Positions 6,341 to 25,768 of a DNA stretch of 64,000 nt are shown one piece after another. The notes beneath the pieces were generated by a model. The model searched no databases and was not told the origin of the DNA. It worked only from the letters and a program-made list of their open reading frames with translations. This stretch comes from Novosphingobium sp. GTDB lineage: Bacteria; Pseudomonadota; Alphaproteobacteria; Sphingomonadales; Sphingomonadaceae. Location of the stretch: the NCBI RefSeq assembly GCF_027486195.1, contig NZ_JAIXPP010000073.1, positions 62,001 through 126,000 on the forward strand, written 5' to 3'. The first letter of the stretch is position 1; each line of letters starts with the position of its first letter. The translations under genes were made by a program, and so were the position numbers.

Positions 6341-6982
6341 ATGGCATCGCATCCCGCCCCTTCGCCCCCAACGCTGTCCCCCAGGGCCGCGCGCACCCGC
6401 AGCGCGCTGATCGCCGCCGGCTTTGAACTGCTGGCCGAAAAGCCGATCGATGCAATACCGATCGACGAAGTCGTGGCGCGGGCAGGCGTGGCAAAGGGAA
6501 GCTTCTTCAACCACTTTGCGGACAAAGCTGCCTTCGCTTCTGCGATTGGCGACGAGGTTCGGCTTGAACTTGAGGGGCGCATCACTGCGGCCAATGACGG
6601 CATTGCTGATCCGCTCGTCCGGATTGGCGGCGGCATGCGCACCGGCGCGATCTTCGCATTGGCCGAGCCCAAGCGCACGATCGTGCTGCTGCGCAGCCAC
6701 GCGAACTCGACCCTCAGCAGCCACCCGCTCAATCGCGGACTGGCGGGCGACATGGCTGCGGCCATCGCTGGCGGACTGGTGCGCGAAGAGGCCCGGGAGG
6801 GCGGGGTGCTCTATTGGCTGGGCCTGTGTCAGGTGCTGATGGCGAACCTGGTGGAGCAGCAGCCCAGCCCTGAAGCCGCGCGCAGGGCGCTCGGCGCGAT
6901 GCTGGTTCTGGGGCTCACCGGGCTCGGGGCGACACCGGAGCGCGCCAGGGAGATTGCCGAGGCGGCCTGCCGGGGGCTCTAG
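6341..6982 (+). CDS. TetR/AcrR family transcriptional regulator
   Basis: N-terminal HTH RAARTRSALIAAGFELLAEKPIDAIPIDEVVARAGVAKGSFFNHFADKAAFASAI. Confidence 0.88.
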   Translation: MASHPAPSPPTLSPRAARTRSALIAAGFELLAEKPIDAIPIDEVVARAGVAKGSFFNHFADKAAFASAIGDEVRLELEGRITAANDGIADPLVRIGGGMRTGAIFALAEPKRTIVLLRSHANSTLSSHPLNRGLAGDMAAAIAGGLVREEAREGGVLYWLGLCQVLMANLVEQQPSPEAARRALGAMLVLGLTGLGATPERAREIAEAACRGL

Positions 6983-7380
6983 GCGGGCTCGGCTTTGGCC
7001 ACATCGCGCAGCACAACGGTCAGGTGCACCTTCAGCACCTCCGCCGGATCGGCATTGGCAAGCCCGCGTGCCATATCGAGCGGGGCATGCCAGTAGTCAC
7101 CCGCAGCGACCGGATAGGTTTCATCACCCAAGGTCGCGAGGCCGCGACCCGAGATGACGTAGTAGAATTCCTCGTAGGCGCCGGTGCCGTTGCGATCATC
7201 GGCATAGTGGACATGGCTGCCTTCGGCCGCGCCGGGTGGAATTTCCAGGATCAGGAAGCGCGTCGGCGCACCCTTGCCATCAAAACGGAAGTGGCGGACG
7301 ATGACGCTGCCGGGGCCGCCGCGCATGTGTTCCAGCGTTTCGCGGGCCTCACGGTCGCTCTCGATCGGACTTGCCGGCAT
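6979..7380 (-). CDS. cupin domain protein
   Basis: GSHVHYADDRNGTGAYEEFYYVISGRGLATLGDETYPVAAGDYWHAP (cupin motifs); 2-bp gap from the accA-like gene; 4-bp convergent overlap with the TetR gene. Confidence 0.8.
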   Translation of the reverse strand: MPASPIESDREARETLEHMRGGPGSVIVRHFRFDGKGAPTRFLILEIPPGAAEGSHVHYADDRNGTGAYEEFYYVISGRGLATLGDETYPVAAGDYWHAPLDMARGLANADPAEVLKVHLTVVLRDVAKAEPA

Positions 7381-7382
7381 GC

Positions 7383-8315
7383 CTACATCGAACCGAGCTT
7401 CATGAAGAACGACCAGCGGTCCTGGCGCAGTTCGTCTGCGTTCAGCGAGGTGAGGTCCTGCAGTTCGGCCCGCAGCGCGGTGCCGAGGCGCTTGATCGTT
7501 TCGGCATGGTTGCGGTGTGCGCCGCCGACCGGTTCGTAGATGACGCGGTGGATCACGCCGAGTTGCATGAGATCGGGCGCGGTCATCTTCATGGCCTCGG
7601 CCGCATCGGGGGCGCGATCATTGCCGCGCCACAGGATTGAGGCGCAGCCTTCGGGCGAGATGACCGAATAGACCGAATGTTCGAGCATCAGCACTCGGTT
7701 GGCCGAGGCGAGCGCGACTGCGCCGCCCGAGCCGCCTTCACCGACGATCACGGCAACCAGCGGCACGCCGATTTCAAGGCATTTCTCGGTGCTGCGCGCG
7801 ATGGCCTCGGCCTGCCCGCGCGCTTCCGCATCGACGCCGGGGAAGGCGCCGGGGGTATCGACCAGCGTGATGACTGGCAGGCCGAAGCGGTCGGCAATTT
7901 CCATCAGGCGGATCGCCTTGCGATAGCCTTCGGGCCGGGCCATGCCGAAATTGTGCCTGAGGCGCGTGGCGGTGTCCTCGCCCTTGGCATGGCCGATGAC
8001 CATGACTGCGCGCCCGCCAAGCCGCGCGAAGCCGCCGATGATGGCCTGATCATTGCCATAAAGCCGGTCGCCGCCCAGCGGCAGGAATTCCTCGAACAGG
8101 CCCTGCATATAGTGGATGAAGTGCGGCCGGGAGGGATGGCGCGCCACTTGCGTGCGCTGCCAGGGCGTCAGGCGTGCGTAGAGATCGGCGAGCTGGCGAT
8201 GCGCCCGCTCGTCGAGCATCAAGGCTTCCGCCTCGCCGCTTCCGCTCTCGCGCAGCGCAGCAGCGCGCTTCGCGAGAGCTTCGATCGGCTTTTCGAACGA
8301 CAGGTATTCCATCAA
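7383..8315 (-). CDS. accA: acetyl-CoA carboxylase carboxyltransferase alpha subunit-like protein
   Basis: HFIHYMQGLFEEFLPLGGDRLYGNDQAIIGGFARLGGRAVMVIGHAKGEDT...GMARPEGYRKAIRLMEIADRFGLPVITLVDTPGAFPGVDAEARGQAEAIARS; AccA hallmark sequence. Confidence 0.9.
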   Translation of the reverse strand: MMEYLSFEKPIEALAKRAAALRESGSGEAEALMLDERAHRQLADLYARLTPWQRTQVARHPSRPHFIHYMQGLFEEFLPLGGDRLYGNDQAIIGGFARLGGRAVMVIGHAKGEDTATRLRHNFGMARPEGYRKAIRLMEIADRFGLPVITLVDTPGAFPGVDAEARGQAEAIARSTEKCLEIGVPLVAVIVGEGGSGGAVALASANRVLMLEHSVYSVISPEGCASILWRGNDRAPDAAEAMKMTAPDLMQLGVIHRVIYEPVGGAHRNHAETIKRLGTALRAELQDLTSLNADELRQDRWSFFMKLGSM

Positions 8316-8325
8316 ACCGTCCCGG

Positions 8326-11300
8326 TCACACTGTCATCGACATCCCGCGATAGATGCGCGCACGATAGCGTGAATCCTCGGCATCGGGGAGGGGGGTGCC
8401 GACAAGCAGCACGGCGCGGGCAAACCGGCGGACCTCTTCGATATGCTCGTCAAGGTCGCGCGGTTCTTCCGAGCGAACGCGGCGGGTGAGGTTGATCTGG
8501 TTGACCGGCGCGCCGTGGACCAGACGCTCGTTCTCCACCGCAAGCGTGGCGGTGAACGAGTGCAGCGTCGTCTTGATGAAGTTTGCGAGCGCGAAGGCCG
8601 GGCTCTTGTCACCCATCGGCACGTCGGGCGAGACGAGGACGAGCTGGCAATCATCATAGAGCGAGGCCTTGCGGGCGACGCGGAAATGATTGGTCAGATT
8701 GTCGCCCACCAGCCCTCGGAATTCCTCCGGCGTGAGCAGCGCATCGGTCGCGAACAGCCGGTTCGGCAGCGGCTGCATGGGGGTCGAGACGATCGTGGTG
8801 GGATGGCCCCACTGGCGGAGGGCCTCGTCCATCGCAGCCTCGATGCCGCCGTCCAGCCCGACGTATTCAAGCGGCGGGTTCTCGATATCGTCGAGCTGGT
8901 CCTTGAGCGCAATGAACGCGCCTTCGGTGCCAGTCATCATCACCACGCGCGCGACATGGCAATCGGCGATGAACTGGCGCGCCGTCTCGGCGAGGTAGTC
9001 GGTGAGGTGCTCACCGATCATCCACACGGTGCGGCCGCGCATCTGATCGAGCCGTTCCTGCTTCGGGCTGCCGAACAGCTCGCGTTCGGTGGTCGAACGC
9101 TCGACGCTGAGGCCGCCCGAAGGCATGAACGTTTCGCCCGAGACGGCGCGGTCGGCGAGGAAGAACACCGTCGCCTGCGCCACGTCGGTCTCGGTCGGCA
9201 TCTTGCCGAGGAAGAGCTGCGAGAGCACGCCGGTGCCGACCTTCTTGGCCTCGACCGCGATCTTGTCGCCGGGGAGGAAGGGCTCGTCTTCCGGCGGCGT
9301 CTTGAGCAGCCAATCGCGGTTTGCCTCAGGCGTATCGGGCCGCTCGCCCCATTCCGGTGAATCGAGGAAGTAGCCGGCCCCGCGCAGGCGCGAGACGAGC
9401 TTGGCGGCGATATCCGGCGTCATCAGATACCGGTCCCAGGTGCACACACCGTCGCCCTCGCGCGCGCAGGCCAGCGCCAGCTCGCGGATTTCGCGCGGAT
9501 TGTTGGTATCGTGCGACATGCGCACGGTATCGTTGCGCGCGAGGCGGCTGAGCAGCGCCTCGACCCGCACCCCGCGCCGGAGCGACTTGACCGCAGCCGC
9601 ATGGATCGCGTTGAGGCGCTTGTTGGCGAGGATCAGCTTGCCGCGCCGCTCGAACAGGCCCGGCTTGCCGCCGGTGCCCGCCAGACGGTCGCCGTCGACA
9701 GGGCCGGGCGCAATCGCGTTGAACTGCACTTCGGGCCCGAGGTAGCGCGCCATCGATTCCACCATCGCGCGCTGGCCGGACTTGGAGGCGGCATAGTCTG
9801 CGCGGTTGGGATAGGCGACCGCGAGGTACTTCTCGCCGCCGAAGTAGGACGAGACGTTGAGCACGTAGCCCGACCCCTGCGCCTTCATGATCGGCACGAC
9901 GTGGTGCATCAGCGTGAAGTTCGAGATGAGGTTGGCGTCGAGCGTGTAGTTCCACGCGTCGAGGCTCATGTCGACGACCATCTCTTCCGCGCCCGCAACG
10001 CCGGCGTTGTTGATCAGATAGTCGATCCGCCCGAAGGCCTTGATCGTGGCGTCGACGGCTGCCTTGAGGCTGTCGAGATTGCTGACGTCCATCCCCGCCA
10101 TGGTCTGCACGCGGCGCTCGACGCCTGCGAAGCCGATATCCTCCAGCTCGCTGACGATGCGCGCGCGGGCGACTGCAAGCTCGCTCTCGCGGCGCGCCAC
10201 CATCATGACCTTGCCGCCTGCGAGCGCGAGGAGCCGTGCGACCTGGCCGCCGATGCCCGCCGAACCGCCGGTGATCAGCGCCACCTTGCCGAGGTGCAGG
10301 CCGGTGATGTTCTCGCTGAAGCCCGCCATCGCCTTGCGCGCGCCCGTTGCCTCACCGATGCTGCGCGGCACGTAGAGCGTGACTTCGGCGATCTTGCTTT
10401 CCTTGATCAGCACGCGCGCGGCGTGCCCGGCGGCAAAGCGCGTGTTCTCGCTTTCCGCATTGGAGAAGCGCACGATCTGGTTGCCCCATTCGCCTTGACG
10501 GCGGCGGCCATGGGCGACGTCGATCTCGCTCTCATCGCGCCAGATGCGGATCAGCTGCTCGATCGCGGCGCGCAGCACGTTGCCGTAGACGTTGTCCTTG
10601 CCGTCACTGGCGTTCGACATGAAGATGAAGCGCGGCGGCTGCAGCAGCGAGCCATGGCGCTTCCAATAGCGGCTGAGCGTGCGGGCGAGCGCCATCGCGC
10701 CGACGAGTTCGACATCCATGAAGGTGTCGATCATGTCGTCCTCGGCATCGACCAGACGGCCGCCGAATTCACCCGGGCCGAACACCGGCATGAAGATTGC
10801 GCCGGTGATTGGCGTGTTGTTCTCGGTGTAGGCGGCAAGCGCGGCCTCGATCGTGGCGGGCTCGGTACGGTTGAAGCGCACGATGGTGAGCGCGTCCCCT
10901 ATGCCTTCCGCCTTGGCGCGGGCCTGCGCAATGGCGACGTCGGCCTGGCGCGGCACGCCGAGCAGCACATTGGTGCCGCAATTGATCTGGATCCTGGCGA
11001 TCTCGAGCGCCTCTTCCCAGCCTTCACCGGCGGCGATGAGGATCGCAAGGCCTGCGCCGTCCATCGAGCGCATGGTGGGGCGCGCGAGGTAGGTCGAGCG
11101 CTCTTCCTTGCGCACGGTCATGCCGTGGGTCACTTCGAAATCGTGCCCGTTGTAGGCGGAGGATTCGTCGCTGCCGAGGAACACGCAGGTCGAGGCGATG
11201 TCGTCCGGCACCGGGAAGGTCTTGGCCTTGGGCGCGCCGCCGGTGCTGCGCTCCAGCGACATCATGTCGAAGAAAGTGTTCGCCGTGGTGCCCTGTTCGT

Positions 11301-12024
11301 CGCCGCGCATGGTGTCCATCGCGGCGAAGACGGTGCGGATCCGCTCGCTTTCGATGGGGCCGGGGAACACGAGATTGACGCGGATGCCGCGTGGGCCAAG
11401 TTCAAGCGAAAGCTCGCGCGACCACGCATTCATCGCCGCCTTGGGGACGACATAGGCCGCGCGCGCATAGTAGGGCGTGCGCGAGAAGATCGTCGAGACG
11501 TTGATGATCGAGCCGCCCTCGGGCATCGCCGCAGCAACCGTGCGGGCAAGGTTCCACGCGACACCGAAGATGTTGCGCATCGCGGCGGGGACGGTTTCTG
11601 TATCGGTCGAGCCGCGCTTCTGGAGGGCGGCAAGCTCCTCCTCGTCAAACGGAAGCTGCTCGATCGGCTGCTTGGGGCCAGCCGAACCTGCATTGTTGAC
11701 GAGGATGTCGATGCGGCCGAACCGCTTGACGACATCGGCCAAGCCATCACGCACGGACTGCGGATTGCCGCCATCGAGAATGACCGTGGCAAGGCGTGTG
11801 GCATCGACGCCGCTGGCCGCACGCATCGCTTCAGCGGCAGCTTCGAGGCGCGCCGCAGTGCGGCCAGTCATGACGACGGTGGCGCCCTCGGCGAGGTAGT
11901 GGCGCACGATATAGCCGCCGAGATTGCCGGCAGCGCCGGTCACAAGTGCGATCTTGCCTGCCAGCCTGCCAGAGGCGAATTGCGCTGCGAGCGGCGCGGT
12001 GGCGATAGTCTTTGCCTTGGCCAT
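8326..12024 (-). CDS. mcr: bifunctional malonyl-CoA reductase (malonyl-CoA to 3-hydroxypropionate), tandem SDR domains
   Basis: 1232 aa; two SDR modules (GRLAGKIALVTGAAGNLGG and HLGKVALITGGSAGIGGQ), INVSTIFSRTPYYARAAYVVPKAAMNA, LNVSSYFGGEKYLAVAYPNRADYAASKSGQRAM, ALANFIKTTLHSFTAT; recalled to be collinear with the Chloroflexus aurantiacus malonyl-CoA reductase (~1220 aa). Confidence 0.93.
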   Translation of the reverse strand: MAKAKTIATAPLAAQFASGRLAGKIALVTGAAGNLGGYIVRHYLAEGATVVMTGRTAARLEAAAEAMRAASGVDATRLATVILDGGNPQSVRDGLADVVKRFGRIDILVNNAGSAGPKQPIEQLPFDEEELAALQKRGSTDTETVPAAMRNIFGVAWNLARTVAAAMPEGGSIINVSTIFSRTPYYARAAYVVPKAAMNAWSRELSLELGPRGIRVNLVFPGPIESERIRTVFAAMDTMRGDEQGTTANTFFDMMSLERSTGGAPKAKTFPVPDDIASTCVFLGSDESSAYNGHDFEVTHGMTVRKEERSTYLARPTMRSMDGAGLAILIAAGEGWEEALEIARIQINCGTNVLLGVPRQADVAIAQARAKAEGIGDALTIVRFNRTEPATIEAALAAYTENNTPITGAIFMPVFGPGEFGGRLVDAEDDMIDTFMDVELVGAMALARTLSRYWKRHGSLLQPPRFIFMSNASDGKDNVYGNVLRAAIEQLIRIWRDESEIDVAHGRRRQGEWGNQIVRFSNAESENTRFAAGHAARVLIKESKIAEVTLYVPRSIGEATGARKAMAGFSENITGLHLGKVALITGGSAGIGGQVARLLALAGGKVMMVARRESELAVARARIVSELEDIGFAGVERRVQTMAGMDVSNLDSLKAAVDATIKAFGRIDYLINNAGVAGAEEMVVDMSLDAWNYTLDANLISNFTLMHHVVPIMKAQGSGYVLNVSSYFGGEKYLAVAYPNRADYAASKSGQRAMVESMARYLGPEVQFNAIAPGPVDGDRLAGTGGKPGLFERRGKLILANKRLNAIHAAAVKSLRRGVRVEALLSRLARNDTVRMSHDTNNPREIRELALACAREGDGVCTWDRYLMTPDIAAKLVSRLRGAGYFLDSPEWGERPDTPEANRDWLLKTPPEDEPFLPGDKIAVEAKKVGTGVLSQLFLGKMPTETDVAQATVFFLADRAVSGETFMPSGGLSVERSTTERELFGSPKQERLDQMRGRTVWMIGEHLTDYLAETARQFIADCHVARVVMMTGTEGAFIALKDQLDDIENPPLEYVGLDGGIEAAMDEALRQWGHPTTIVSTPMQPLPNRLFATDALLTPEEFRGLVGDNLTNHFRVARKASLYDDCQLVLVSPDVPMGDKSPAFALANFIKTTLHSFTATLAVENERLVHGAPVNQINLTRRVRSEEPRDLDEHIEEVRRFARAVLLVGTPLPDAEDSRYRARIYRGMSMTV

Positions 12025-12144
12025 GTCACTCTCCTGAAGAATGCGCGCGAAGTGCTGCGCCGGTTTGAGGTGGTACTAGGCCTGGGGAGGGCAGCTGGAA
12101 GGTGTGCGCCGCGCTAGCGCGGTGCGATCGTTCGTTGTCTTCGG

Positions 12145-15100
12145 CTATGCATTGCCGCCTTCCGCTTCCCGGACGGCCCAGGCTTCGAGCAGCGCGTCGC
12201 GGCTGCGCAGGCCCATGGCGGGGAGGGCGTGGTTGACGACATAGGTCGCACCAGAGTGGCGGTTGTCCCACATCGACTGGTGGGCTTCGGGCAGGCCGTC
12301 CCACCCGACAACCTCGGGCTCGGTGACTTCGAGCAGCCCTGCCGCGATCATGTCGTTCATGCGCGCAACCTCGAAGGCATTGCAGAGGTGCGTGCCGAGG
12401 ATCGACGCGGTGGGCATGAGGATCTTGCGCTGGCGGGTCCAGACCTGCGGCGCATAGAACGTGAAGCGGCTGCCGGTGAGGTCTTCAGCGAAGACGACCC
12501 GTCCGGTGAAGGGCTTCACCAGCGAGGTCGAGACGCCGAGCGTGTCCTGTCCGGTGCGTTCGAAAACCAGATCGGGCGCGCCGCGCGGGTTATCGGGCGA
12601 GCGCAGGATCTTGCCGATGGCCGAGCCGAACGGCTTCATCACGCGGTCCTGATAATCGCGCACCGCCGCCTTGAAGACCTCGATATCGACCTTGGCATCG
12701 GGCAGGCGCGGCATCGTGTCGGGCCAAAGGAAATTGTCCCCCTCGCGCCGACGGATGCTTTCCAGGCTGACGATGCCTTCGATGGCATCTTCAAGGCCGA
12801 GCGAGCCGAGGAATTCGCGCTGGCCGTCGGTGGTGGTGGCGACGACGCTGCGCGCGTTGAAGCGGCGCGCGGCTTCGATGATTTCGAGGCCCATGTCATC
12901 AAGCAGCGCGTCGGAGCCGGGACCGTAGTAGATCAGCACCGCTTCGCCGCCGCGCAGAGCGGCACGGCGCAGCATCTCTTCGGGGCTCGCCTTGCCGGGC
13001 TTGCCCATGAAGCTGAAGTGATAGCCCGAGGACGCGCCGTAGAAGGCCAGCGTGCCGTTTTCCGCCAGAAGCTGGAAGCTTCGAGGGAACGCCGTCTCGC
13101 CGGCATGGCTGACGACGTAATCCGCCAGCTTGCCGCCGTTGAGCGCCTTGTATTCCTCGACCAATGATGCACCGGCGGATTCCCAGGCGCGCGCGGCCTC
13201 GGCGTCTTCTGGCACCGTGGTGTAGAGATCGGCGAAGCGCGGATCCTTGCGGTTGATCGCGCCAACTGCACCTTGCTGGCCGGTGATGAACGCGGCGCGG
13301 TCAGGGCTGGAGACGAGGCCCGTCACCTGCAGGCCGGTGCGCACGGAGGAGCGCAGGGCATCGAGCCCGGTGCCGGTGGCGGCGCCTTCGACAAAGAGCG
13401 TGCGGCCGGGTGCGATCTGCAGCGTGGTGAACAGGCAGCGCGAGATCGTGCCGAGGTTGAGCACATAGCTCCCCGCCTGCTCCAGCGTCAGGTTTGGCGG
13501 GACCTTGTGCATCTGCGGCGCCTGCACCGTCAGGAACTGCGCGTGGCTGCCCGTTTCGGTCTCGTAGCCCTGGATCGAGAAATCCGCGTACATCGGATCG
13601 TTGCCGACCGCGGGCGAGAGCAGATCGTTGGTGCCGGAATAGACGGTGACGAGATCGCCGACCTTCACGCGGCCTTCCGAGCGCGTCTCGCTGCCGAGCG
13701 CGGCGACGAGCGCAATGCCGCCCGAGCCGGTGATCTGGACGTCTTCCTCGTGGCTATCGAACGGCGAGACGGGAATGCCCGTTAGCGCCCAGATATCGTT
13801 GAAGTTGACCTCGCTGGTCAGCATGTAGAGCAGCGCTTCGTTGGGCGCAGGCTCGGGCACCTTGACGATCAGCTCGCGCTCGTGAGTCGACGGCGGGCCG
13901 AAGCGCGGGGCGCCGGTATCGGGATCGCGGGCGATGCCGAAAGCATACTGGTACGGGGGGATTGCGGTGACGCCGGGATAGAATGGCGCACCGACAGGCA
14001 GCAGATCGCCACCCGCTTCCAGCTCTGCCGCGCGGGTCTCATGCTCGGCGTCGATCCACACGCCGTCGCGCCGCACCGGGAGCGGGGGCGCCACCTTGTC
14101 CATGAACTGGCGGATGCCGGTCTTGCCGCCTTCGGGATCGATGATCGCTTCGGCGAACAGTGCTGCCTCACGGGCGAGACCAGCGGACATGCCGGAGGCA
14201 AGGCCGGTGCGCACCGCATCGAGCGCGCGGGCACCCGCTGTGCCGCGTCCTGCCCAATCGAGCTGGCGCAGGATGCGCTGCAGGAAATCGTCCTCAAGCA
14301 CGGTATCGAGATCGACAGTGGAGGGCTTCTCCCACAGCACGGTCGCTTCCTCGCGCGCGGCGAAGGCTTTGCCCAGCGGGCTTTCCGCCCCGCGCTTCAC
14401 CCATTCACGCACCATGGCGTGGGCTTCGGCAAGCGCATCGCGGTGGCCTTCGGCCAGCGCATCGACGAGACCAATCTCCTGCGCCTGCGCAGCATCGATG
14501 CTGCGCCCGCCGAGGATGAGATCGAGCGCATCGCGTACGCCGGTTGCACTGTGGCGGTCTGCCAAGAGGCGCGGCAGGCGCTGCGTGCCGCCATAGCCCG
14601 GCAGAAGGCGCAGGCGGATTTCGGGCTGGCCGAAACGCGCGGTGGTTTCGGCCACGCGGACGTGGCACGCCAGCGCGAACTCCATTCCGCCACCGAGCGC
14701 GACGCCCTGAACCGCTGCGATGCATGGCTTGCCCATCATCTCGATCTTGCGGAAGGCGAGTTGCGCGTTGTTGGGCAGGACCAGCGCTTCGTCGTGGCTG
14801 TGGATTTCCTCCAGCATCTGCCGGATATCCGCGCCCGCGACGAACGAGGATGTGCCCTCGCCGGTGAAGACGACCGCGACGACATCGTCCTTGCGGCTGA
14901 GGTGCTCGACCACGATCACCAGTTCGTCGATCGCGCGTTCGTTGAGCGCGTTGACCGGCGCGTTGGTAACGGTGACGGTGGCGACGCGCTTGCCGGGGGC
15001 TACTGCATTGTATTGGATGAGGAAGTAGCGGTAGCGTTCGAACAGCGATTGCTCTTCCGAAAGGCGCTGCTGGCGCTGCCACGCGTCAATCGCGGTCTTG

Positions 15101-17625
15101 AGCTCGGTCAGGCTTTCCGGGTTGCGCAAGGTGGTGACGTCACCCAGTTCGCCGCCTTCGACCAGCGCGCGGACCATGCGGCGCATGTATTTGCCCGAAC
15201 GCGTTTCGGGGAACTGGCTGACTTCGATGAAATCGGCCGGTACCGCGACGGCGCCCTTTTCGGTGCGGACGAGATTGAACAGGCGCTGGCGGTCTTCCTC
15301 GGTGAGCTTGCGCCCCGCCACGGGGACGACGAAGGCGAGCGGGGTCAGCCCCTTCTCGCGGTGCGGCGCGCCGACGACGAGGACGTTGCCGACCGGTGAA
15401 TTGGGATCGAGCGCCTTGTCGCGCAGCACGGCGCCTTCGATTTCCTCGGTCCCCATGCGGTGGCCCGAAACGTTGATGACGTCATCCGAGCGGCCATGGA
15501 ACGAGAACGAGCCATCATCATGCGCGATGGCGAAATCGCCCTGGGTATAGGCCCACGCACCCTGCCAGCGGCTCCAGTAGCCGGATTCCCAGCGTCCGGC
15601 ATCGCCCTTCCAGTCGCCTTGAACGGTGCCGTCCTTGACGTTGAAGTTCAGAGCATCGCCCCAGATCGTGCGGGCCAGATAGGGATAGGGGGCGGCGATG
15701 ACGATCTCGCCCTTTTCGCCCGGTTCGGCGCGTCGCCAGGCGACACCTTCACTGCCGGAGCGGGTAAACGGGCTCTTGCCGGGCGTGGCGGCTTCGTCTT
15801 CCACCCAGACTTCGCCAACGATCCACGGCAGCGGGAAGGCGTGGGCATCGGCCTTGAGCGGGAAATCGGCGTTGCCGTAGAAATGCGTCCAGGCAATGCC
15901 GCCGTGCTCGGTCGCCCAGTAGCTGTTGATGTACTGCCGGGTCACGTTCTCCATGCCGAAGGCCTGCACGGAGGGACTGGTTGGCTCGGCGCAGAAGGTC
16001 GCGACACGAAGCGCGCTCATGTCATAGCGCTGCACATCCGCGAGGTTCGACGGATCGGACATGATCGACTTGAGGAAGGTGACGCCCGCCTTGAAGATCG
16101 TGATCTTGTGGCGCTCGATCATCGAGGCGAAGCGGCCCGCATGCGGGAACACGGGCGAACCTTCGGAAACGACCGTGGTGACGCGCGACAGAAGCGAGGC
16201 GGAGATCTGGTAGCTCTGTCCGGTGATCCAGCCCGGATCGGCGACCACGAACATCGTGTCACCCGGGCGCGCATCGAAGGCGACCCGCATCGATTCCGCG
16301 ATGCCGGCGGTGTAGCCGCCGTGAACGTGGACGATGCCCTTGGGCTTTCCGGTGGAGCCCGAGGTGTAGATGAAGAACAGCGGATATTCGGAATCGACCG
16401 GAAGCGGCTTCGAGCTGGCCCAGATCGCCCGGACAAACTCTCCGTCAGGCAGCGCCATCAGCGCATCTTCGCTTGCGACATTGGCCTTTTCGAGGATGGT
16501 TTCGAGCGCTGCGTCGGTGAGTTCGTGGCTCCACCGATCGCGCTCGGTGCGCCAGACGATATCGGGCTGCGCGGTGTGGCGCACCACGATCACGGTATCG
16601 ACGCGCGGCGGCAGGGTGACGAGGCTGGAGGCGATGGCAAGGCGCACGCGCGCGGCATCGCTGGCGCCGATGCGGCCGGATTCGCCGAGCTTGATGAGCG
16701 CACGGCCAACGCCGCGCATGACATCGGAGCGCTCGACGGTGACTTCGCCCGCCAGCGTTTCCGCAACGGTATCGGTGATGACGGCAGCGTCCGCCGCATC
16801 AAGGCCGAGGTCGGTGGCGGCGAGAACGGCAAGCGCGGTGCTCACCGGCACATAGTTGTCGAGCGCCGGGTCGGTATAGGCCGTCTTGAAGGCGGCAACC
16901 TGCGCGTTGCGGTAGCTGCCGTCAGACGTCACGATGACGCGCGCACCGGCGTCGGCAATGCGGTCCGACAGGGTCTTGTCGCTGAAGCCGCCGAAAACGG
17001 CTGTGTAGACGATGCCCAGCCGCTTGGCCGCCTCGGTCCAGAAGATCTGCGGCACGATGCTCGGCATGTTGAGCGCGATGCGATCGCCCGCCTTGAGGCC
17101 GAGGCCCTCCAAGGCGATGGCGCACTTGGCAACTTCAAGCAGCAGGCGCTTGCGGCTGACAGTGAAGGTATCGACCGGCGCGCCGCGCCCGCCGTCCGCC
17201 GCCATGTCCCAGCGGTCGCCCTCGAAGATCAGCGCGGCTTCGGCGCCGTGTCCCGAAAGGACATGGCGGTCGATCTCGTTGAACGCAGCATTGGTGCGCG
17301 CGCCGGTAAACCAGCGCCAGTGGGGCGGGGTGCTGTCGTCAAACGCCCTGGTCCAGGGCGCGAAGGTTGCCGGGAGTTCGGGGGTAACGGGCGCGCCGGT
17401 GGCGGCATCCCATCCGGCCCAGGTGCCCGCATCGTCCTTGGTGAGCCACGCGCCGTCAGGCCCGCAATTGGCAACGAACCAGTGGATGCGCCGCGCGGCG
17501 ATATCGCCGTGGAATGCGCCGGGATCGGCGAGCGCAGCAGCGCGCATGGCTTCCCAATCCGCGCGAGTACGCACCGGATTGATTTCGGCCTGCGGGGCCT
17601 TCTCGATAACTTGGCCCTCGGTCAT
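12145..17625 (-). CDS. pcs: trifunctional propionyl-CoA synthase (3-hydroxypropionyl-CoA synthetase / dehydratase / acryloyl-CoA reductase)
   Basis: 1826 aa with acyl-CoA synthetase domain (FFIYTSGSTGKPKGIVHVHGG), enoyl-CoA hydratase domain (FVAGADIRQML...GVALGGGMEFALACHVRVAE) and C-terminal MDR reductase domain (GSYVLNLGTISRCLFTTLQIAPGRTLFVEGAATGTG); size and domain order match propionyl-CoA synthase. Confidence 0.93.
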   Translation of the reverse strand: MTEGQVIEKAPQAEINPVRTRADWEAMRAAALADPGAFHGDIAARRIHWFVANCGPDGAWLTKDDAGTWAGWDAATGAPVTPELPATFAPWTRAFDDSTPPHWRWFTGARTNAAFNEIDRHVLSGHGAEAALIFEGDRWDMAADGGRGAPVDTFTVSRKRLLLEVAKCAIALEGLGLKAGDRIALNMPSIVPQIFWTEAAKRLGIVYTAVFGGFSDKTLSDRIADAGARVIVTSDGSYRNAQVAAFKTAYTDPALDNYVPVSTALAVLAATDLGLDAADAAVITDTVAETLAGEVTVERSDVMRGVGRALIKLGESGRIGASDAARVRLAIASSLVTLPPRVDTVIVVRHTAQPDIVWRTERDRWSHELTDAALETILEKANVASEDALMALPDGEFVRAIWASSKPLPVDSEYPLFFIYTSGSTGKPKGIVHVHGGYTAGIAESMRVAFDARPGDTMFVVADPGWITGQSYQISASLLSRVTTVVSEGSPVFPHAGRFASMIERHKITIFKAGVTFLKSIMSDPSNLADVQRYDMSALRVATFCAEPTSPSVQAFGMENVTRQYINSYWATEHGGIAWTHFYGNADFPLKADAHAFPLPWIVGEVWVEDEAATPGKSPFTRSGSEGVAWRRAEPGEKGEIVIAAPYPYLARTIWGDALNFNVKDGTVQGDWKGDAGRWESGYWSRWQGAWAYTQGDFAIAHDDGSFSFHGRSDDVINVSGHRMGTEEIEGAVLRDKALDPNSPVGNVLVVGAPHREKGLTPLAFVVPVAGRKLTEEDRQRLFNLVRTEKGAVAVPADFIEVSQFPETRSGKYMRRMVRALVEGGELGDVTTLRNPESLTELKTAIDAWQRQQRLSEEQSLFERYRYFLIQYNAVAPGKRVATVTVTNAPVNALNERAIDELVIVVEHLSRKDDVVAVVFTGEGTSSFVAGADIRQMLEEIHSHDEALVLPNNAQLAFRKIEMMGKPCIAAVQGVALGGGMEFALACHVRVAETTARFGQPEIRLRLLPGYGGTQRLPRLLADRHSATGVRDALDLILGGRSIDAAQAQEIGLVDALAEGHRDALAEAHAMVREWVKRGAESPLGKAFAAREEATVLWEKPSTVDLDTVLEDDFLQRILRQLDWAGRGTAGARALDAVRTGLASGMSAGLAREAALFAEAIIDPEGGKTGIRQFMDKVAPPLPVRRDGVWIDAEHETRAAELEAGGDLLPVGAPFYPGVTAIPPYQYAFGIARDPDTGAPRFGPPSTHERELIVKVPEPAPNEALLYMLTSEVNFNDIWALTGIPVSPFDSHEEDVQITGSGGIALVAALGSETRSEGRVKVGDLVTVYSGTNDLLSPAVGNDPMYADFSIQGYETETGSHAQFLTVQAPQMHKVPPNLTLEQAGSYVLNLGTISRCLFTTLQIAPGRTLFVEGAATGTGLDALRSSVRTGLQVTGLVSSPDRAAFITGQQGAVGAINRKDPRFADLYTTVPEDAEAARAWESAGASLVEEYKALNGGKLADYVVSHAGETAFPRSFQLLAENGTLAFYGASSGYHFSFMGKPGKASPEEMLRRAALRGGEAVLIYYGPGSDALLDDMGLEIIEAARRFNARSVVATTTDGQREFLGSLGLEDAIEGIVSLESIRRREGDNFLWPDTMPRLPDAKVDIEVFKAAVRDYQDRVMKPFGSAIGKILRSPDNPRGAPDLVFERTGQDTLGVSTSLVKPFTGRVVFAEDLTGSRFTFYAPQVWTRQRKILMPTASILGTHLCNAFEVARMNDMIAAGLLEVTEPEVVGWDGLPEAHQSMWDNRHSGATYVVNHALPAMGLRSRDALLEAWAVREAEGGNA

Positions 17626-17814
17626 GACCGAATCGCCTCTCCCTTTTTGGTGTTGAAGCGACAGGGAGCCTCAACATCGCAGTCTTGGCAATATCATCAC
17701 GCGGGCGCGCACGAATGCGCAAGAAACAACGAAAATCTGGACTGAATGCGAAATATCGTTTGTTTCTCGCACCATGTCCGAAACAGAGGCGTTGAGCATG
17801 CTGGTTCGCTGGAA

Positions 17815-17890
17815 CAGCAATTAAATATCCAAATGGGTTAATTGCTGGAGGTCGAGACAAGCCCTCCGATAAGGGTTATCCACAGGATAA
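17815..17890. promoter_or_regulatory. candidate pcs promoter/operator region with nested dyads
   Basis: CAGCAATTAA-13 bp-TTAATTGCTG (17815-17847, perfect 10-bp arms), GATAA-GGG-TTATC (17868-17880) and TTATCC-ACA-GGATAA (17876-17890) within the 452-bp gap upstream of pcs. Confidence 0.6.
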
Positions 17891-18077
17891 GTGGCGCAAT
17901 TTTTTCCCGAATGTAACTTTCCGTTATCCCTTTCCCGACCCGCTCACTCCGACCGTCACGCACCGAAATCGTAGATTGCGGTTAGAAATGGTCCTCGGGA
18001 AATGCCCCTTGGGGCATGTGCGACGAACCGGGCGAATTACGCCGTCTGTTGCAGCATAGACGCACATTTGCGCGGTT

Positions 18078-19712
18078 TCAGCGGGCGGAAAGTCCGAGCT
18101 CAGCTTCCATCATGCGGCGCATCTCGAACTTCTGCGCCTTGCCCGTGACAGTCATCGCGAAGCTTTCGACCACGCGGACATGGCGAGGGACCTTGTAGTG
18201 CGCGATGCGGCCGCGGCAGTGGCCGAGGATGTCGTCCGGCCCCAGCGCGGCGCCGGCGCGGGCGATCACCCAGGCGCAGACTTCCTCGCCGTACTTCTCG
18301 TCGCTCACGCCGAAGACCTGCGCGTCGGCTACATGCGGGTGGGTGAGGAGGAACTCCTCGATCTCACGCGGGTAGATGTTCTCACCGCCGCGAATGATCA
18401 TGTCCTTGATGCGGCCGGTGATGCGCACATAACCTTGGGCGTCCATCGTGGCGAGATCGCCCGAATGCATCCAGCCATCGGCGTCGATTGCCTCGGCGGT
18501 CTTGGCCGGATCGTCCCAGTAGCCGAGCATGACGGCATAGCCGCGCGAGCAGTATTCGCCCTGCTCGCCGATCGGCAGGGTCTGCCCATCCGGCCCGACG
18601 ATCTTCGCTTCGGCATGGGGATGGACCCGCCCGACAGTGCCGACGCGCTCTTCCAGCGGATCGTTGCGAGCGGTCTGCGTGGTCAGCGGGCTCGTTTCGG
18701 TCATGCCGTAACCGATGGTGACTTCGCGCATGCAGAGCCGGTCGATCACCTGCCGCATCACCGTTACGGGGCAGGGGGAGCCTGCCATGATGCCGGTGCG
18801 CAGGGTGGAGACATCGGTCGTATCCAGCGCAGGCTGGCCGAGCACCGCGATGAACATTGTCGGCACGCCATAAAGCGCGGTGCAGCCCTCGGCTTCCACG
18901 GCCTGCAGAACAGCCGCCGGATCAAACGCCTCACCGGGATAGACCATCGCCGCGCCGCTGGTCAGCGCCGCCATATTGCCCAGCACCATGCCGAAACAGT
19001 GGTAGAGCGGCACCGGAATGCAGATGCGGTCCGCCTCCGTCAGCGCGATGGTCTGCGCGGTGAAGTAGCCGTTATTGAGGGTGTTGCGGTGGGTGAGCGT
19101 GGCGCCCTTGGGAAAACCGGTCGTGCCGCTCGTGAACTGGATATTGATCGCGTCATCAGCACCCAGGCCAGCGCCCGCTGCGGCAAGCTCGTCTGCATCG
19201 GCTGTTGTGTCGAGCGTATCCCACGGCAGGAAACCTTCATGCGCGTCTGCGCCGATGGTCACGATATGCCGCAGATGGGGCAGCTTGGCCGGGCCGATCT
19301 CACGCAGCATCGCAAGGTAGTCGCTGGTCTTGAAGCGCACCGCGGTGACGAGCAGGCTGCAGCCGACCTTGTTGAGCGCGTATTCGATTTCGTTGACCCG
19401 GTAGGCCGGGTTGATCGTGACGAGGATCGCCCCGATCCGCGCGGTGGCAAACTGGATCACCGTCCATTCCGCGCAGTTGGGTGCCCAGATGCCGACACGG
19501 TCTCCCGCCGTGACCCCGAGCCGTAGCAGCCCCGTCGCGACGCGGTCTACCGCCGCATCGAGCTCGCTCCAGGTCCAGCGCAGTCCCTGATGGCGCGATA
19601 CAAGGGCCAGGCCATCGGCCCAGCGCTCCGCCGCGTGGCGCAGCGCCGTGCCGATGGTGGTATCGAGCAGGGGTACCTCGGTCGGCCCCTTGGCATAGGA
19701 CAAACCGTGCAC
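18078..19712 (-). CDS. AMP-binding acyl-CoA synthetase (FadD-like)
   Basis: [84 protein letters not shown]. Confidence 0.9.
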
Positions 19713-19723
19713 GCCCGCAGTAC

Positions 19724-21937
19724 TCAGAACTTAACGCCTGCGGTTACGCCGTACATCCGCGGATTGCCGATGTGGTTGTAATCGAGCCCGAAGCCGGTGA
19801 GATCGATGCGCGAGGTGAAGTAGAACTTGTTGCCCAGATTGCGCGCCCAGGCCGAGAGGCTGTAGCGCCCGTCGTTGCTGTTCCAATCGATGTGGCCGCC
19901 GAAGAGCGCGTAGGATTCCTGGCGCAGGCGCGGGATGTTGATGTTCTCGAAGAACTGGCTCGCCTGATAGGCCACTTCGGGGTGGACCGAGAACGCGCCG
20001 AAGCCGCCCTGTACCACGGTCCAGTCGAAGCTCGCGTTGAAGGTCAGCGAAGGCGCATTGGAGAGTCGGTTACCGGAGACGTTGATGCCGCTGACGATGC
20101 CTTCCTTGATCTTCGTCGAAAGCAGGCCAAGCCCGCCGTGGAAGGTGAAGGTATCGCTGGGCCGCACGGTCAGCTCGGCCTCGGCGCCGTAGAGCTCGGA
20201 CTTGGGAATGTTGAGCAGCTGCTGCGAGGCATCGGCCGGGTTCACGTTGATGAACTGCTGGTTCTTGTAGGTGTAGTAGAACGCAGCCATGTTGAGCGTG
20301 ATGCGGCGATCCCAGAACTGGGTCTTTGCACCGGCCTCGAACGCGGTGACCTGTTCAGCCTTGGCGACGCCGAGTTCGGTCGGCGTGAAGAAGGCCTGGG
20401 CATTGAAGCTGGGCGCACGGTAGCCGCGACTGACGCTGGCGTAGAGCAGATCGCCGCTCGCCAGCTTGTAATCCAGCCCGATCTTGCCCGAGAGGTTGTT
20501 CTGTTTGAAGCGCAAGTTCGAGAGCGGGATGAGGTTCGCGACGAAGCTGTCGTCAACGCCCAGCGCATCGGACGAGAAGCCGGTCTGCTCACCATCGTCG
20601 TGGGTATAGCGCAGGCCGCCGCGCACGGTCAGTGCATCGGTGAGCTTGTACTTGAGATCGGTGTAGAGCGCGAAGCTCTTCTTGACCTGATCGAACTGGT
20701 TGCGGACCTTGCAGGCCACCGGCAGGCCCGCAGCGCAATCCGCCGCGTTGATCACGCCGTCCTCGTTCACGTCGGTATCGTTGAACACCTCAAGCGTGGT
20801 CTGGTTGTAGACCTTCTCGCGGTTGAAATAGGCGCCGAGGATGAAATCGAACGGCCCGCCGGTATTGCTGGTCAGGCGCAGGTCCTGCGCAAACTGGCTG
20901 GCCCGGTCGAAGTAGGGCACTTCAAGGTTTCTGGCGGTGATGCCGTCGGTGTCTTCCTTGAAGAACAGCGAGCCCTTGTCATAGCTGGTGATGCTGGTGA
21001 CGGCGAGCGTATCCGAAACATCGTAGTTCACGGTGAGCGCCACCGAGGTGGTCACCGCGCGGCGCTTGTCACGCACGTTGGAGGCGATCTGGAACTGGCC
21101 GAGGCCGGGGCGGTTGACCGCTTCGGGTTGGGCGTAAATCCCGTAGTTCTGCGGGTTCTGGAAGCTGTGCGAGGCGCGCAGGGTAATCTTCACCCGGTCG
21201 CTCGGCTCCAGCTTGAGCGTGCCGCGCAGGCCCCATTCATCGGTGCTGGCGAGATCGGGAAAGCCGGGGTTGACGTTCTTGAACCAGCCATCCGCCTTGG
21301 CATACGTGCCCGCGATGCGCAGTGCGGCCTTCTCGCCCAGTGCCACGTTGACCGCGCCGTTGAGATCGACGCGGTTGTAGTTGCCGTAGCCAGCATTGAA
21401 ATAGCCGCTGGTTTCGCCGAGCTTGGCATCGCGGCTGATCAGGTTGACCGCACCGCCGGTGGTGTTCTTGCCGTAGAGCGTGCCCTGCGGCCCGCGCAGC
21501 ACCTCGACGCGCTCGATATCGTAGAGCGCGATGCCGAGGAACGCGAAGTTGCCCTAGTAGACTTCGTCGTAATAGGTCGCGACCGGGCTCGACTGGTTGA
21601 GGCTGAAGTCCGACATCGAGACGCCGCGCAGCGCGAAGATCGGGGTGTTGTCACCCACGGTCGAGGTCAGCTGGAGGTTGGCGACCTTGTTGACGAGGCT
21701 GTCTACGCTGGTGATGCGCGACTTGGACAGCGCTTCGCCGCCGATTGCCGAAACCGAAATCGGCACGGACTGCAGGTTTTCCGAACGCTTGGCGGCGGTC
21801 ACGACGATTTCGCCGGAGTCTTGCGCCTCGGTACCGGTCGTCGCCTGTGCTGCCTGCTGAGCGTAGGCGGGTTGCACCGCCAGCATCAACGCCATCGGCG
21901 CGGCCAGCGCGGCGCTGGAAAGAAATACAGTCCTCAT
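19724..21937 (-). pseudogene. TonB-dependent receptor interrupted by one in-frame TAG (21554-21556)
   Basis: N-terminal signal peptide and plug (MRTVFLSSAALAAP...GEIVVTAAKRSENLQSVPISVSAIGG...SPVATYYDEVY*) and barrel (GNFAFLGIALYDIERVEVLRGPQGTLYGKNTTGGAVN...VTAGVKF) lie in the same reading frame on either side of one stop. Confidence 0.85.
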
Positions 21938-22451: not shown

Positions 22452-22996
22452 TGGCCGCCCGCAGCGGCGTGGAGCTTGCCGACATCTTGCGCGGAAAGCG
22501 AAGCGCCGCCCGCCCGGATTGTCGCCACTTCGGCTTCGGCGAAAGGCCTGAAGGCGGGTCCGGTCTTGGCAATCTCGGTACCGACATGGTTGAGCACCGC
22601 CGCCACCGAGGCATCATCGAGCGTCGCCTGCGCGGGCATCACCCCGGCATAGGGCTTGCCGCCGACCTTGATCGGGCCGCTGACCCCGCGCGTGACGACG
22701 AGTGCGAGATAGCGGCGCCCGGCATCGCTTGATGCCATGACGCGGAAGTCCTCGCCAAGCGGCGGGAAGACGCCGGGCACGCCTGCACCGGTCTTGGTGT
22801 GGCAAGCTGCGCACCGGCCATAGATCGCCGCGCCATCTGCAGCCGCGTGGACCGGCAGCGTCAGGCCGGCGAGGGCCGCAGCGCCGCCAGCGACGAGGGC
22901 GAGGGCGGCCGCGCGCTTCACTTGGCCGCCGGTAGCGCTACGCCGATGACCGCCGCCACCGAGCAATTGTAGACCGAGCTCTCCGAGCCGAGGCAC
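22448..22996 (-). CDS. mono-haem cytochrome c
   Basis: One CAACH motif with ...VPGVFPPLGEDFRV...PYAGVMPAQATLDD; the true start is probably an internal GTG (VKRAAALALVAGG) just downstream of the aauA stop. Confidence 0.8.
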   Translation of the reverse strand: MPRLGELGLQLLGGGGHRRSATGGQVKRAAALALVAGGAAALAGLTLPVHAAADGAAIYGRCAACHTKTGAGVPGVFPPLGEDFRVMASSDAGRRYLALVVTRGVSGPIKVGGKPYAGVMPAQATLDDASVAAVLNHVGTEIAKTGPAFRPFAEAEVATIRAGGASLSAQDVGKLHAAAGGQ

Positions 22997-23493
22997 CAGT
23001 TGTAATCGTTGTTCGATTGCGGCCGGACCTGCGGGCGATCACCTTCGTTGCGGTTGCACAGGCACTGCCCGCAAGAGGAGGTGCCGCAGCAATCGTTGTA
23101 GCTGATGACATAGGCGCGGCCATCGGCTGGGTTGGTGCAGGTGCCGATCCAGGTGATGGGCGACATTTCGGTGCCCGGCGGGCAGGTGTTGACCGAGCCG
23201 CCGCAGCATGAGCAGAGGAACCCGTCGATGGCGCAGTAGCGCCAGTAATCGCAAGACGACTGATCGCCCGGATCCTGCTCCAGCCCGGAGACAACGGCAG
23301 GCCGGGCAGCGCCCGCGCCGTGTGCGCCGTGCGGCGCTTCCGGGGCCGGGGTTGCCGCGCGGGCAACGGGCAGGAGCGGGATGGAGGCCGCGCCGGTCAT
23401 CCCCGCGCCCAGAAAGGCGAGCAGCGAACGGCGCGAGGTGCCACGGGCAATCCCGCGCGCGAGGTTTTCAGTGAGCTTGTCGAAACGCGCCAT
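22918..23493 (-). CDS. aauA: aralkylamine/methylamine dehydrogenase light (TTQ) subunit
   Basis: SSCDYWRYCAIDGFLCSCCGGSVNTCPPGTEMSPITWIGTC...CCGTSSCGQCLCN...NWCLGSES; Cys-rich TTQ subunit pattern, closer in recalled sequence to aromatic amine dehydrogenase; Tat-like signal TSRRSLLAFLG. Confidence 0.9.
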   Translation of the reverse strand: MARFDKLTENLARGIARGTSRRSLLAFLGAGMTGAASIPLLPVARAATPAPEAPHGAHGAGAARPAVVSGLEQDPGDQSSCDYWRYCAIDGFLCSCCGGSVNTCPPGTEMSPITWIGTCTNPADGRAYVISYNDCCGTSSCGQCLCNRNEGDRPQVRPQSNNDYNWCLGSESSVYNCSVAAVIGVALPAAK

Positions 23494-23496
23494 GGG

Positions 23497-24114
23497 TCAG
23501 GCCTCCTGATGGTTGTGCGCCTGGCGGCGAGAGAGAAATTCCTGGATCGAGGCGACGCCCCGTTCCTTTGCCTCGAACAGGCTTTCCAGATGTTCGCGGC
23601 TATTGATGAGGCCGAGCGAGGCGACGCGGCCTTCCTCGTCGAGAAGCACGGCATAGGGCAACTTGGAAACGCCAAACGCGCGGCCCAGCGCTTCGGACAG
23701 AACCATCGGCAGTGCCTCCAGCCCGTGTTCGCGCGCCATCGCGAGATAGCCGGACTTGCTGCCGTCGCCCGCCAACACGATATCGAGCCAGCCAGCCTCG
23801 GCGCGCGCGGCGCTCCTCACCACGGGGAGCAGCGATTTGCACATCGGGCAATCGGGCGAGGCGAAGAACAGAAGCTGACTGCGACCATCGCGCGTCCCGC
23901 CGATGGCAACGCCTGCGCCGTTCACGTCTGCCAGCGTCATCGGTGTGGCCTTTTCGCCCAGCGCAACCTTCTGGTGCAGCGTAAGCGCGCCGGCCGGGGC
24001 GATGCGTTCGTGGAGGATGCCGACCTGACGCGCGAGCGCGGCGATCAGCAGGGCTTGGCCGATGACCGCCGCCCACAGGAGGATCTGACTTGTCAGCATC
24101 AGGCTGCTTTCCAT
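23497..24114 (-). CDS. aauD: MauD/AauD-type thioredoxin-fold accessory protein
   Basis: ILLWAAVIGQALLIAALARQVGILHERIAPAGAL...LLFFASPDCPMCKSLLPVVRS (CPMC); an alternative start at 24099 overlaps the mauE-like stop (TGATG). Confidence 0.87.
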   Translation of the reverse strand: MESSLMLTSQILLWAAVIGQALLIAALARQVGILHERIAPAGALTLHQKVALGEKATPMTLADVNGAGVAIGGTRDGRSQLLFFASPDCPMCKSLLPVVRSAARAEAGWLDIVLAGDGSKSGYLAMAREHGLEALPMVLSEALGRAFGVSKLPYAVLLDEEGRVASLGLINSREHLESLFEAKERGVASIQEFLSRRQAHNHQEA

Positions 24115-24587
24115 TGCGGCGCCGGGATCGCGAGAAGTTCGCTGGCGCCAAGGTAGAGTGCAAGGAGCCCGGCCGCCGCGAACGGGGCATCGAGCGTGAG
24201 CGGCGCGTCCGGAAACAGGGCAACGCCTGCGGCCAGCAGCGCGAGACCGCCCGCGCGCAGCACTTGCGCCGTGCTGACGGGCTTGGGGCGCGCAGCAAGA
24301 TCGCACCCGCAATCGAGCGTTTCGCCGCGGCGGCGGGCAAGGGCGAGGGCATATGTGCCCCAGACCAGCGCCGCGATGACCGCGCCGGCAAGGCGCAGCG
24401 GCGCAGCCAGCAGGCAGGCGGCGGCCACAAGTTCCAGCGTCCCGGCAAGCACCAGCAGCAGCTGACCCGGCACCGCGCCGACGCCAACGAGCCGCGCGGT
24501 CGCCTCAGCCAGCCGATCACGGGCCAGAACCTTGTGCAAGGCCGAGGCCGCGAGCAGGCCCGCGCAGAAGAGGACCAATGCGGCCAT
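24099..24587 (-). CDS. aauE: MauE/AauE-type membrane accessory protein
   Basis: Multi-TM 162 aa protein with DCGCDLAARPKPVS; position between B and D genes as in mau/aau clusters. Confidence 0.82.
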   Translation of the reverse strand: MAALVLFCAGLLAASALHKVLARDRLAEATARLVGVGAVPGQLLLVLAGTLELVAAACLLAAPLRLAGAVIAALVWGTYALALARRRGETLDCGCDLAARPKPVSTAQVLRAGGLALLAAGVALFPDAPLTLDAPFAAAGLLALYLGASELLAIPAPQWKAA

Positions 24588-25768
24588 CAGGGCACCTGGA
24601 TCACGATCGGATTGGCCGCGACGGTGGCCCCAAGCGTGCGCACGAAGGCGCCCGTTGCCGCATCATAGATGTCGATCGCACCGCCGGCCTGTGCGACCAC
24701 GAGATGCGGTGTCGCCTCACGCGTCACGGCAATGGCGACAGACTGGCCCTTCAGCGCAATGCGCATGGTGCGGGCCTTCTTGGCTGGATCGACCACCCAC
24801 ACTTCGCTGCCGCCGTCCTTGTGGCTGCCTTCCTTGCCGTAGGGGCTCATCAGCACATAGAGCTTGCCCGCGGCATCGGCGTTGATGACCTGCCAGCCGC
24901 CGGGACGCCATTCCGGCGATCCGCCATCGGCTGTGCCGACGCTGAAGCTGCCGGGGAGGGGCTTGGCGACGGTGCCCGAAAGATCGAAGCCCTGGATCAT
25001 GCCATGAAAGCTGACGAACCACGCTGTCGTGCCGACCATGGCCGGGGTGCCGAACAGCGCCTGGTTGTCGATATCCTGCACCTTGGGCACCGACTTCGAC
25101 GAAGCGGCCGCGCCATTGGCATCGAGCGCCACGCTGAAAAGCGAGCCATCGGCGCAGAGGCTGGTAAAACCGCGCTCACCGGTGGGATAAATCTGCGAAC
25201 AGCCGGGCAGATCGATCTCGCCCAGCACCTTGCGCGCGGCCAGATCGACCACGGTGACGGACTGGGCCGGCGTGAAGTTGGCCACGAGTGCCCATTTGCC
25301 GCCGTTGGTCAGCTGGAACAGGTGCGGATAAGTAACCGATTGCTGGCGCTTGCCGCCGGGCAGCACGATCTCGCCCTTGGGCTGCAGCGTCGAGGCATCC
25401 CAGATGGTGATCGCGTCCGTGCGCTCACCGCGTGTCAGGCGGGTGTAGAACGTCTCGGCGGTGTAGAGTTCGCCGCGATCCTTCGCGATGAGGAAGTTGG
25501 CAAACTGCGACGCGCGGACGAGGCCCTTGAGCGGCTGGACCGTATCGGCCGTATCAACCACCGCGATGCGGCCATCGATGATCGCGTTGAAGTGGAAATC
25601 GTGGATCGTGACCCAGCTTTGCGGCCATGTGGCGGGCAGCTTTGCGACGCTGGGGAGGGTTTCTTCGGCCAGTGGCTGCGGGAAACGGTTTTCGGCCGCC
25701 ATGACGGGTGAGGCCAGAACAGCGGAGAGGCACAGCGCAGATGCGAAAACGGGTGCGATCAATCGCAT
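24587..25768 (-). CDS. aauB: aralkylamine/methylamine dehydrogenase heavy subunit
   Basis: Signal peptide MRLIAPVFASALCLSAVLASPVMA, then beta-propeller-like sequence SVAKLPATWPQSWVTIHDFHFNAIIDGRIAVVDTA...VWVVDPAKKARTMRI; gene order B-E-D-A. Confidence 0.87.
   Translation of the reverse strand: MRLIAPVFASALCLSAVLASPVMAAENRFPQPLAEETLPSVAKLPATWPQSWVTIHDFHFNAIIDGRIAVVDTADTVQPLKGLVRASQFANFLIAKDRGELYTAETFYTRLTRGERTDAITIWDASTLQPKGEIVLPGGKRQQSVTYPHLFQLTNGGKWALVANFTPAQSVTVVDLAARKVLGEIDLPGCSQIYPTGERGFTSLCADGSLFSVALDANGAAASSKSVPKVQDIDNQALFGTPAMVGTTAWFVSFHGMIQGFDLSGTVAKPLPGSFSVGTADGGSPEWRPGGWQVINADAAGKLYVLMSPYGKEGSHKDGGSEVWVVDPAKKARTMRIALKGQSVAIAVTREATPHLVVAQAGGAIDIYDAATGAFVRTLGATVAANPIVIQVP

Follow-up and report, generated by a model that had tools for sequence, protein, structure and literature searches.

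Propionyl-CoA synthase (Pcs) and malonyl-CoA reductase (Mcr) belong to the first arm of the 3-hydroxypropionate bi-cycle, which in Chloroflexus aurantiacus also includes a second, glyoxylate-assimilating cycle. Both enzymes are already known in aerobic phototrophs from Erythrobacter and Porphyrobacter. Full bi-cycles have been reported in phototrophic Burkholderiales and Gemmatimonadota (PMC9802188), the Kentron symbionts present the mirror image, with the second half of the bi-cycle and without Mcr and Pcs (PMC6593406), and in bloom phototrophs the pathway has been suspected, propionyl-CoA carboxylase not being detected there (PMC11089705). For the sphingomonad phototroph Porphyrobacter sp. 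ULC335, the accessible part of the report describes a partial 3-hydroxypropionate pathway for which CO2 co-assimilation was proposed, and whose genes rise in daytime; it deals with one strain, and that part makes no statement on the generality of the association with phototrophy (PMC10674011). In this work we analyzed a stretch of 64,000 nucleotides (the window) from Novosphingobium sp., positions 62,001 to 126,000 of contig NZ_JAIXPP010000073.1 (assembly GCF_027486195.1), that carries the genes pcs, mcr and accA followed by a cupin gene. We find the pcs-mcr pair almost exclusively in genomes with photosynthesis genes, and consider it probable that the operon encodes the first arm of the bi-cycle intact and that an aerobic anoxygenic phototroph uses it as an open CO2-adding route that is paid for by light.

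The four open reading frames were confirmed on the minus strand at the coordinates first assigned to them (Table 1), and domains were called on the window proteins with Pfam and NCBIfam profiles. A first-pass annotation of the sequence had recognized two giant fusion enzymes of 1826 and 1232 residues with intact signatures, compared them with the Erythrobacter enzymes and proposed that they encode the arm from acetyl-CoA to propionyl-CoA; the domain calls and the structural matches bear this out. Residues 20-1824 of Pcs align collinearly with PDB 6eqo (2913 bits), the propionyl-CoA synthase of Erythrobacter sp. NAP1, with the same three domains in both proteins. The residues K812 (ligase lysine), E982 and E1002 (hydratase glutamate pair), whose positions were taken from the homologous acetyl-CoA synthetase and crotonase, are identical in 80 of 80 homologous stretches, with one X, and the catalytic lysine and glutamates are kept in the NAP1 enzyme as well. 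Mcr is a close match to 6k8v and 6k8s, structures of the N-terminal and the C-terminal half of the Porphyrobacter (Erythrobacter) dokdonensis enzyme, and matches the Chloroflexales enzymes 8hi4 and 8hjw over its full length, with the same architecture of four short-chain dehydrogenase/reductase (SDR) domains and the same active-site motifs. The residues of the Roseiflexus Mcr that mutation has shown to matter (PMC10470521) map to T178, Y185, R188, Y191, K195, S726, Y738, R741, Y744, K748, R780, L790 and R794 of the window protein; none is missing, and 70 homologues show them unchanged except for one F at Y185. The Y-x-x-R-x-x-Y motifs and the triads T178-Y191-K195 and S726-Y744-K748 are likewise intact in the tandem SDR domains. 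A loss of catalytic residues, named in the first-pass annotation as the main observation that would count against its proposal, is thus not seen in either protein, given that every residue examined is kept, and both enzymes are presumably active.

The compact arrangement described at first sight also stands: accA follows mcr after 10 bp (13 bp if it starts at the ATG that is its second codon instead of at TTG) and the cupin gene follows accA after 2 bp, while 120 bp lie between pcs and mcr. In the related loci with enough flanking sequence, pcs and mcr adjoin on one strand in all but Aneurinibacillus danicus. Chance is excluded as an explanation of the observation, and pcs, mcr, accA and the cupin gene are predicted to be co-transcribed. 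A foreign island was rejected on base composition, since the GC content of the operon (0.663) is close to that of the whole window (0.66). In both NAP1 and the window pcs lies directly before mcr; however, the loci of the NAP1 clade lack accA after mcr, whereas the window Pcs falls in the accA-bearing clade. The E. dokdonensis locus (L095) has the order pcs-mcr-accA as in the window but no cupin gene was found in it at the sensitivity used, and no functional difference was seen.

The host assembly (4.73 Mb, 91.7% complete, estimated contamination 3.25%) is Novosphingobium-like, and among named Pcs sequences the nearest come from Novosphingobium fuchskuhlense and N. sediminis. Contig C23 carries, in this order, genes for a ScfR-type regulator, the beta subunit of propionyl-CoA carboxylase, a thiolase, an epimerase, methylmalonyl-CoA mutase and the alpha subunit of the carboxylase, so that propionyl-CoA can go on to succinyl-CoA. 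Contigs C19 and C52 carry pufLM with bchZ, bchX, bchD, bchB, bchP and ppsR; given this photosynthesis cluster, which the first-pass annotation had missed, the host is probably an aerobic anoxygenic phototroph. The earlier remark that no autotrophy genes are visible holds for the window, but the photosynthesis genes lie on other contigs of the genome. No match to RuBisCO was found in the 91.7% complete assembly, and an isocitrate lyase of the 531-residue type is present. C19 (L149) and C52 (L150) have an end of 3.58 kb in common at 93.7% identity, a difference of about 6% from which it follows that the assembly mixes near strains. Contigs C14 and C111 likewise give lyase matches at identical coordinates. 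That the photosynthesis contigs come from another organism and were binned here by error, for which the mixed strains at the PufLM contigs and the contamination estimate could be cited, is nevertheless highly improbable, because the isolates N. fuchskuhlense, N. sediminis, Erythrobacter NAP1 and E. dokdonensis, among many others, carry both Pcs and PufLM, as do single-contig genomes of the family.

The association was surveyed in one sample of 399 genomes of the family, in which PufLM was counted above the cut-off. Pcs was present in 41 genomes, PufLM in 77 and both in 38; the three with Pcs and without PufLM are 67-88% complete. Among the genomes at least 90% complete, PufLM occurs in 36/36 of those with Pcs versus 73/362 overall (Fisher p ~1e-29, in a test that takes related genomes as they are); counted by genus, as a partial remedy for relatedness, the association gives p = 3.7e-6. 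A sample of 397 genomes of Pseudomonadota contained Pcs in only 2, both with PufLM. A wider set held 50 Pcs-bearing genomes, drawn from Alpha-, Beta- and Gammaproteobacteria, Gemmatimonadota and one Firmicute. PufLM is present in 47 of these, and the remaining three are two metagenome bins with Mcr, possibly incomplete, and A. danicus, the clear non-phototroph of the set, which lacks Mcr altogether. The genomes G006, G101, G163, G212, G315 and G379 of the genus g7, and likewise G445 (L075), have four PufL/M-type matches each, that is, two sets of reaction-centre genes at separate sites.

Full-length Pcs of 53-59% identity, with no Mcr near by, is found in A. danicus (L116) and on haloarchaeal megaplasmids (L175, L176), in lineages without known chlorophyll phototrophy; in Natrinema it lies close to the genes for methylmalonyl-CoA mutase and MeaB. 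Given that the Pcs-only cases are these, it is the pcs-mcr pair, and not Pcs alone, that tracks phototrophy. Carriage of the pair by plasmids was rejected, since plasmid-borne Pcs was seen only on the haloarchaeal megaplasmids and Mcr on no plasmid record. A Pcs of this kind would use 3-hydroxypropionate from elsewhere, and one could suppose that in the window too the arm assimilates external 3-hydroxypropionate, or provides the propionyl-CoA that goes into odd-chain or methyl-branched lipids or a storage polymer, and does not mainly serve C4 intermediates. This is unlikely for the Novosphingobium operon, whose own Mcr would make 3-hydroxypropionate inside the cell and whose genome holds the enzymes that lead from propionyl-CoA to succinyl-CoA.

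The histories of the two gene sets were compared in quick trees of PufLM and Pcs from 40 genomes, with support from the Shimodaira-Hasegawa-like approximate likelihood ratio test only. The trees agree in outline and conflict with support in places. NAP1 and a relative have an Erythrobacter PufLM, but their Pcs stands beside those of Blastomonas and a Phyllobacteriaceae bin; in Aerophototrophica, Pcs and AccA are of the sphingomonad type, but PufLM stands beside that of Steroidobacteraceae; and the Gemmatimonadota form one group by PufLM (support 93), with their Pcs scattered in several places. These conflicts led us to reject a transfer of pcs-mcr and the photosynthesis cluster together in one event, despite the correlation of the distance matrices (Mantel r 0.59). 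The pairing probably arose more than once, by independent acquisitions, and linkage is the less likely explanation; that genes with different histories were paired repeatedly points to a functional tie, as far as these quick trees allow.

The accA gene appears to have joined pcs-mcr once, in a sphingomonad lineage, as the presence of an adjoining accA maps to one fully supported change on the Pcs tree. When 78 AccA sequences were placed in a tree, the operonic copies that directly follow mcr made up a supported clade of 44, separate from the housekeeping copies; two Glacieibacterium sequences whose accA lies 2 kb further on fall among the latter. The window AccA is full length, and a second full-length AccA, on contig C100, clusters in this tree with copies from further genomes of its genus. 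In three near-complete relatives of the genus g31 (G031, G114 and G220), the only full-length AccA found is of the operonic type, an apparent displacement of the housekeeping accA. Since they have no other full-length AccA, the operonic protein could do the essential job, which suggests that it is able to replace the housekeeping copy.

In the route that we propose, AccA together with the other acetyl-CoA carboxylase subunits of the cell would make malonyl-CoA, Mcr would reduce it to 3-hydroxypropionate with two NADPH, and Pcs would activate, dehydrate and reduce this product to propionyl-CoA within one protein at the expense of ATP and NADPH. Propionyl-CoA carboxylase, the epimerase and methylmalonyl-CoA mutase, encoded elsewhere, would lead on to succinyl-CoA, so that each acetyl-CoA would take up two bicarbonates; the cost of the arm is most likely covered by light-driven ATP, and organic carbon would be spared. 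The overall reaction uses acetyl-CoA, 2 bicarbonate, 3 NADPH and 3 ATP (one of them to AMP) to give methylmalonyl-CoA and then succinyl-CoA, whereas the glyoxylate shunt consumes two acetyl-CoA per C4 unit and fixes no carbon; the arm saves organic carbon in a cell that has light-driven ATP but no RuBisCO. We infer the direction of the flux and its dependence on light; the daytime rise of these genes in the related Porphyrobacter ULC335 speaks for the proposal (PMC10674011). The anaplerotic C2-to-C3/C4 or reductant-consuming role suggested earlier is supported. A replacement of the glyoxylate shunt was rejected, as an isocitrate lyase profile matches 79/80 genomes regardless of Pcs and the 531-residue type is present in this genome.

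A complete autotrophic bi-cycle, as in C. aurantiacus and as reported for the Burkholderiales and Gemmatimonadota cited above, is improbable here. The genome does encode the steps from malonyl-CoA to succinyl-CoA plus AccA; in contrast, the glyoxylate-assimilating second cycle is not evident, since neither of its two best HpcH/HpaI matches (72 and 66 bits to 4l7z) is a malyl-CoA lyase of the Chloroflexus type, one of them being about equally near the Methylobacterium-type malyl-CoA lyase and CitE-like lyases. Porphyrobacter ULC335 is likewise described as lacking the full pathway (PMC10674011).

Several observations weigh against a light-paid CO2-adding arm. The relatedness of the genomes in the Fisher test is only partly remedied by the count by genus, and the association of Pcs with PufLM does not by itself show flux. 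PufLM occurs without Pcs in 39/77 of the PufLM-bearing genomes of the family, so that phototrophy does not need Pcs. The carboxyltransferase profile PF01039 matched AccA twice in the host genome and gave no AccD-like match, which may reflect a gap in the assembly or an AccD of unusual type. The PpsR box (TGT-N12-ACA) was found upstream of pcs in 3/76 loci versus 3.3 expected, without enrichment; control of pcs by PpsR through this box was rejected and, with no sequence link to PpsR, a light control of the operon, if real, would act by another route.

The first-pass annotation tied the module to the catabolism of flanking aromatic and amine substrates, as a reductant sink or a C2-to-C3 route. 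Near the operon the window indeed carries genes for an extradiol-type dioxygenase, a fumarylacetoacetate (FAA) hydrolase, a CoA ligase and the heavy and light chains of a methylamine dehydrogenase (Table 1), and within Novosphingobium the ligase, TonB receptor, TetR and dioxygenase genes remain beside the operon. However, these and the cupin gene adjoin pcs-mcr only in loci of the Novosphingobium type, in other lineages none of them does, phototrophy being what is common, and the upstream ligase is set apart from pcs by 452 bp in which separate boxes are conserved. An all-against-all comparison of open reading frames in the flanks of 80 named loci, with Pfam searches of selected neighbours, found nothing but accA common across clades, and a conserved partner gene beyond accA in one clade was rejected. 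As the other flanking genes are unshared across clades, the aromatic/amine neighbourhood belongs to the genus or strain rather than to the module, and a role in that catabolism is most doubtful. In the gap upstream of pcs the boxes AAACAAACGATATTTC and GATATTGCCAAG are conserved in the close genus only, and no sigma-70 consensus was found there. The TetR regulator weakly resembles AcuR in its DNA-binding part. In the Methylibium sp. NZG locus (L106), a gene for a Na+-dependent bicarbonate transporter (Sbt_1) follows mcr and one for a family III CoA-transferase lies upstream of pcs (6523-7752 and 19312-20334).

Table 1. Features of the operon and its surroundings, in window positions
Feature	Position	Strand	Basis or remark
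TetR-family regulator, convergent with the cupin gene	6341-6982	+	Profile match; beside the operon only in Novosphingobium loci
Small Cupin_2 protein, lineage-specific	6979-7380	-	PF07883, 7.6e-11
accA-type acetyl-CoA carboxylase carboxyltransferase alpha subunit, 310 aa	7383-8315	-	Above NCBIfam equivalog cut-off; PDB AccA match
mcr, bifunctional malonyl-CoA reductase, 1232 aa, four tandem SDR domains	8326-12024	-	PDB 6k8s/6k8v, 8hi4/8hjw
pcs, propionyl-CoA synthase, 1826 aa	12145-17625	-	Full-length match to PDB 6eqo; AMP-binding/acyl-CoA synthetase, enoyl-CoA hydratase and medium-chain dehydrogenase/reductase (acrylyl-CoA reductase) domains
pcs upstream region, putative promoter	17626-18077	-	Boxes AAACAAACGATATTTC and GATATTGCCAAG, common to Novosphingobium only
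Methylamine/aralkylamine dehydrogenase light chain	22918-23493	-	mau-type cluster
Thioredoxin-like gene between the two dehydrogenase chains	23497-24312	-	mau-type cluster
Methylamine/aralkylamine dehydrogenase heavy chain	24587-26020	-	mau-type cluster, whole 22918-26020

A literature search, outside which most subscription papers lay, returned no statement that nearly all carriers of pcs-mcr are phototrophs or that the addition of accA was a single event, and how widely the pair is coupled to phototrophy appears to be under-reported. Propionyl-CoA carboxylase, undetected in the bloom phototrophs (PMC11089705), is present in this genome. The chances seem to us evenly balanced that pcs-mcr is a portable, light-linked, carbon-saving module, gained apart from the photosynthesis genes in several classes and in the Gemmatimonadota, that would explain the light-stimulated CO2 uptake of some aerobic anoxygenic phototrophs, and to which accA was added once, in a sphingomonad lineage, in a form able to replace the housekeeping copy. 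Lakes and seas commonly harbour these phototrophs, most of which lack RuBisCO, and the extent to which light enables them to fix CO2 is a standing question. That pcs-mcr tracks the photosynthesis genes across phyla on a separate evolutionary path makes this question testable in cultured strains, and pcs adjoining mcr provides a gene marker with which possible CO2-co-assimilating phototrophs may be counted in metagenomes.

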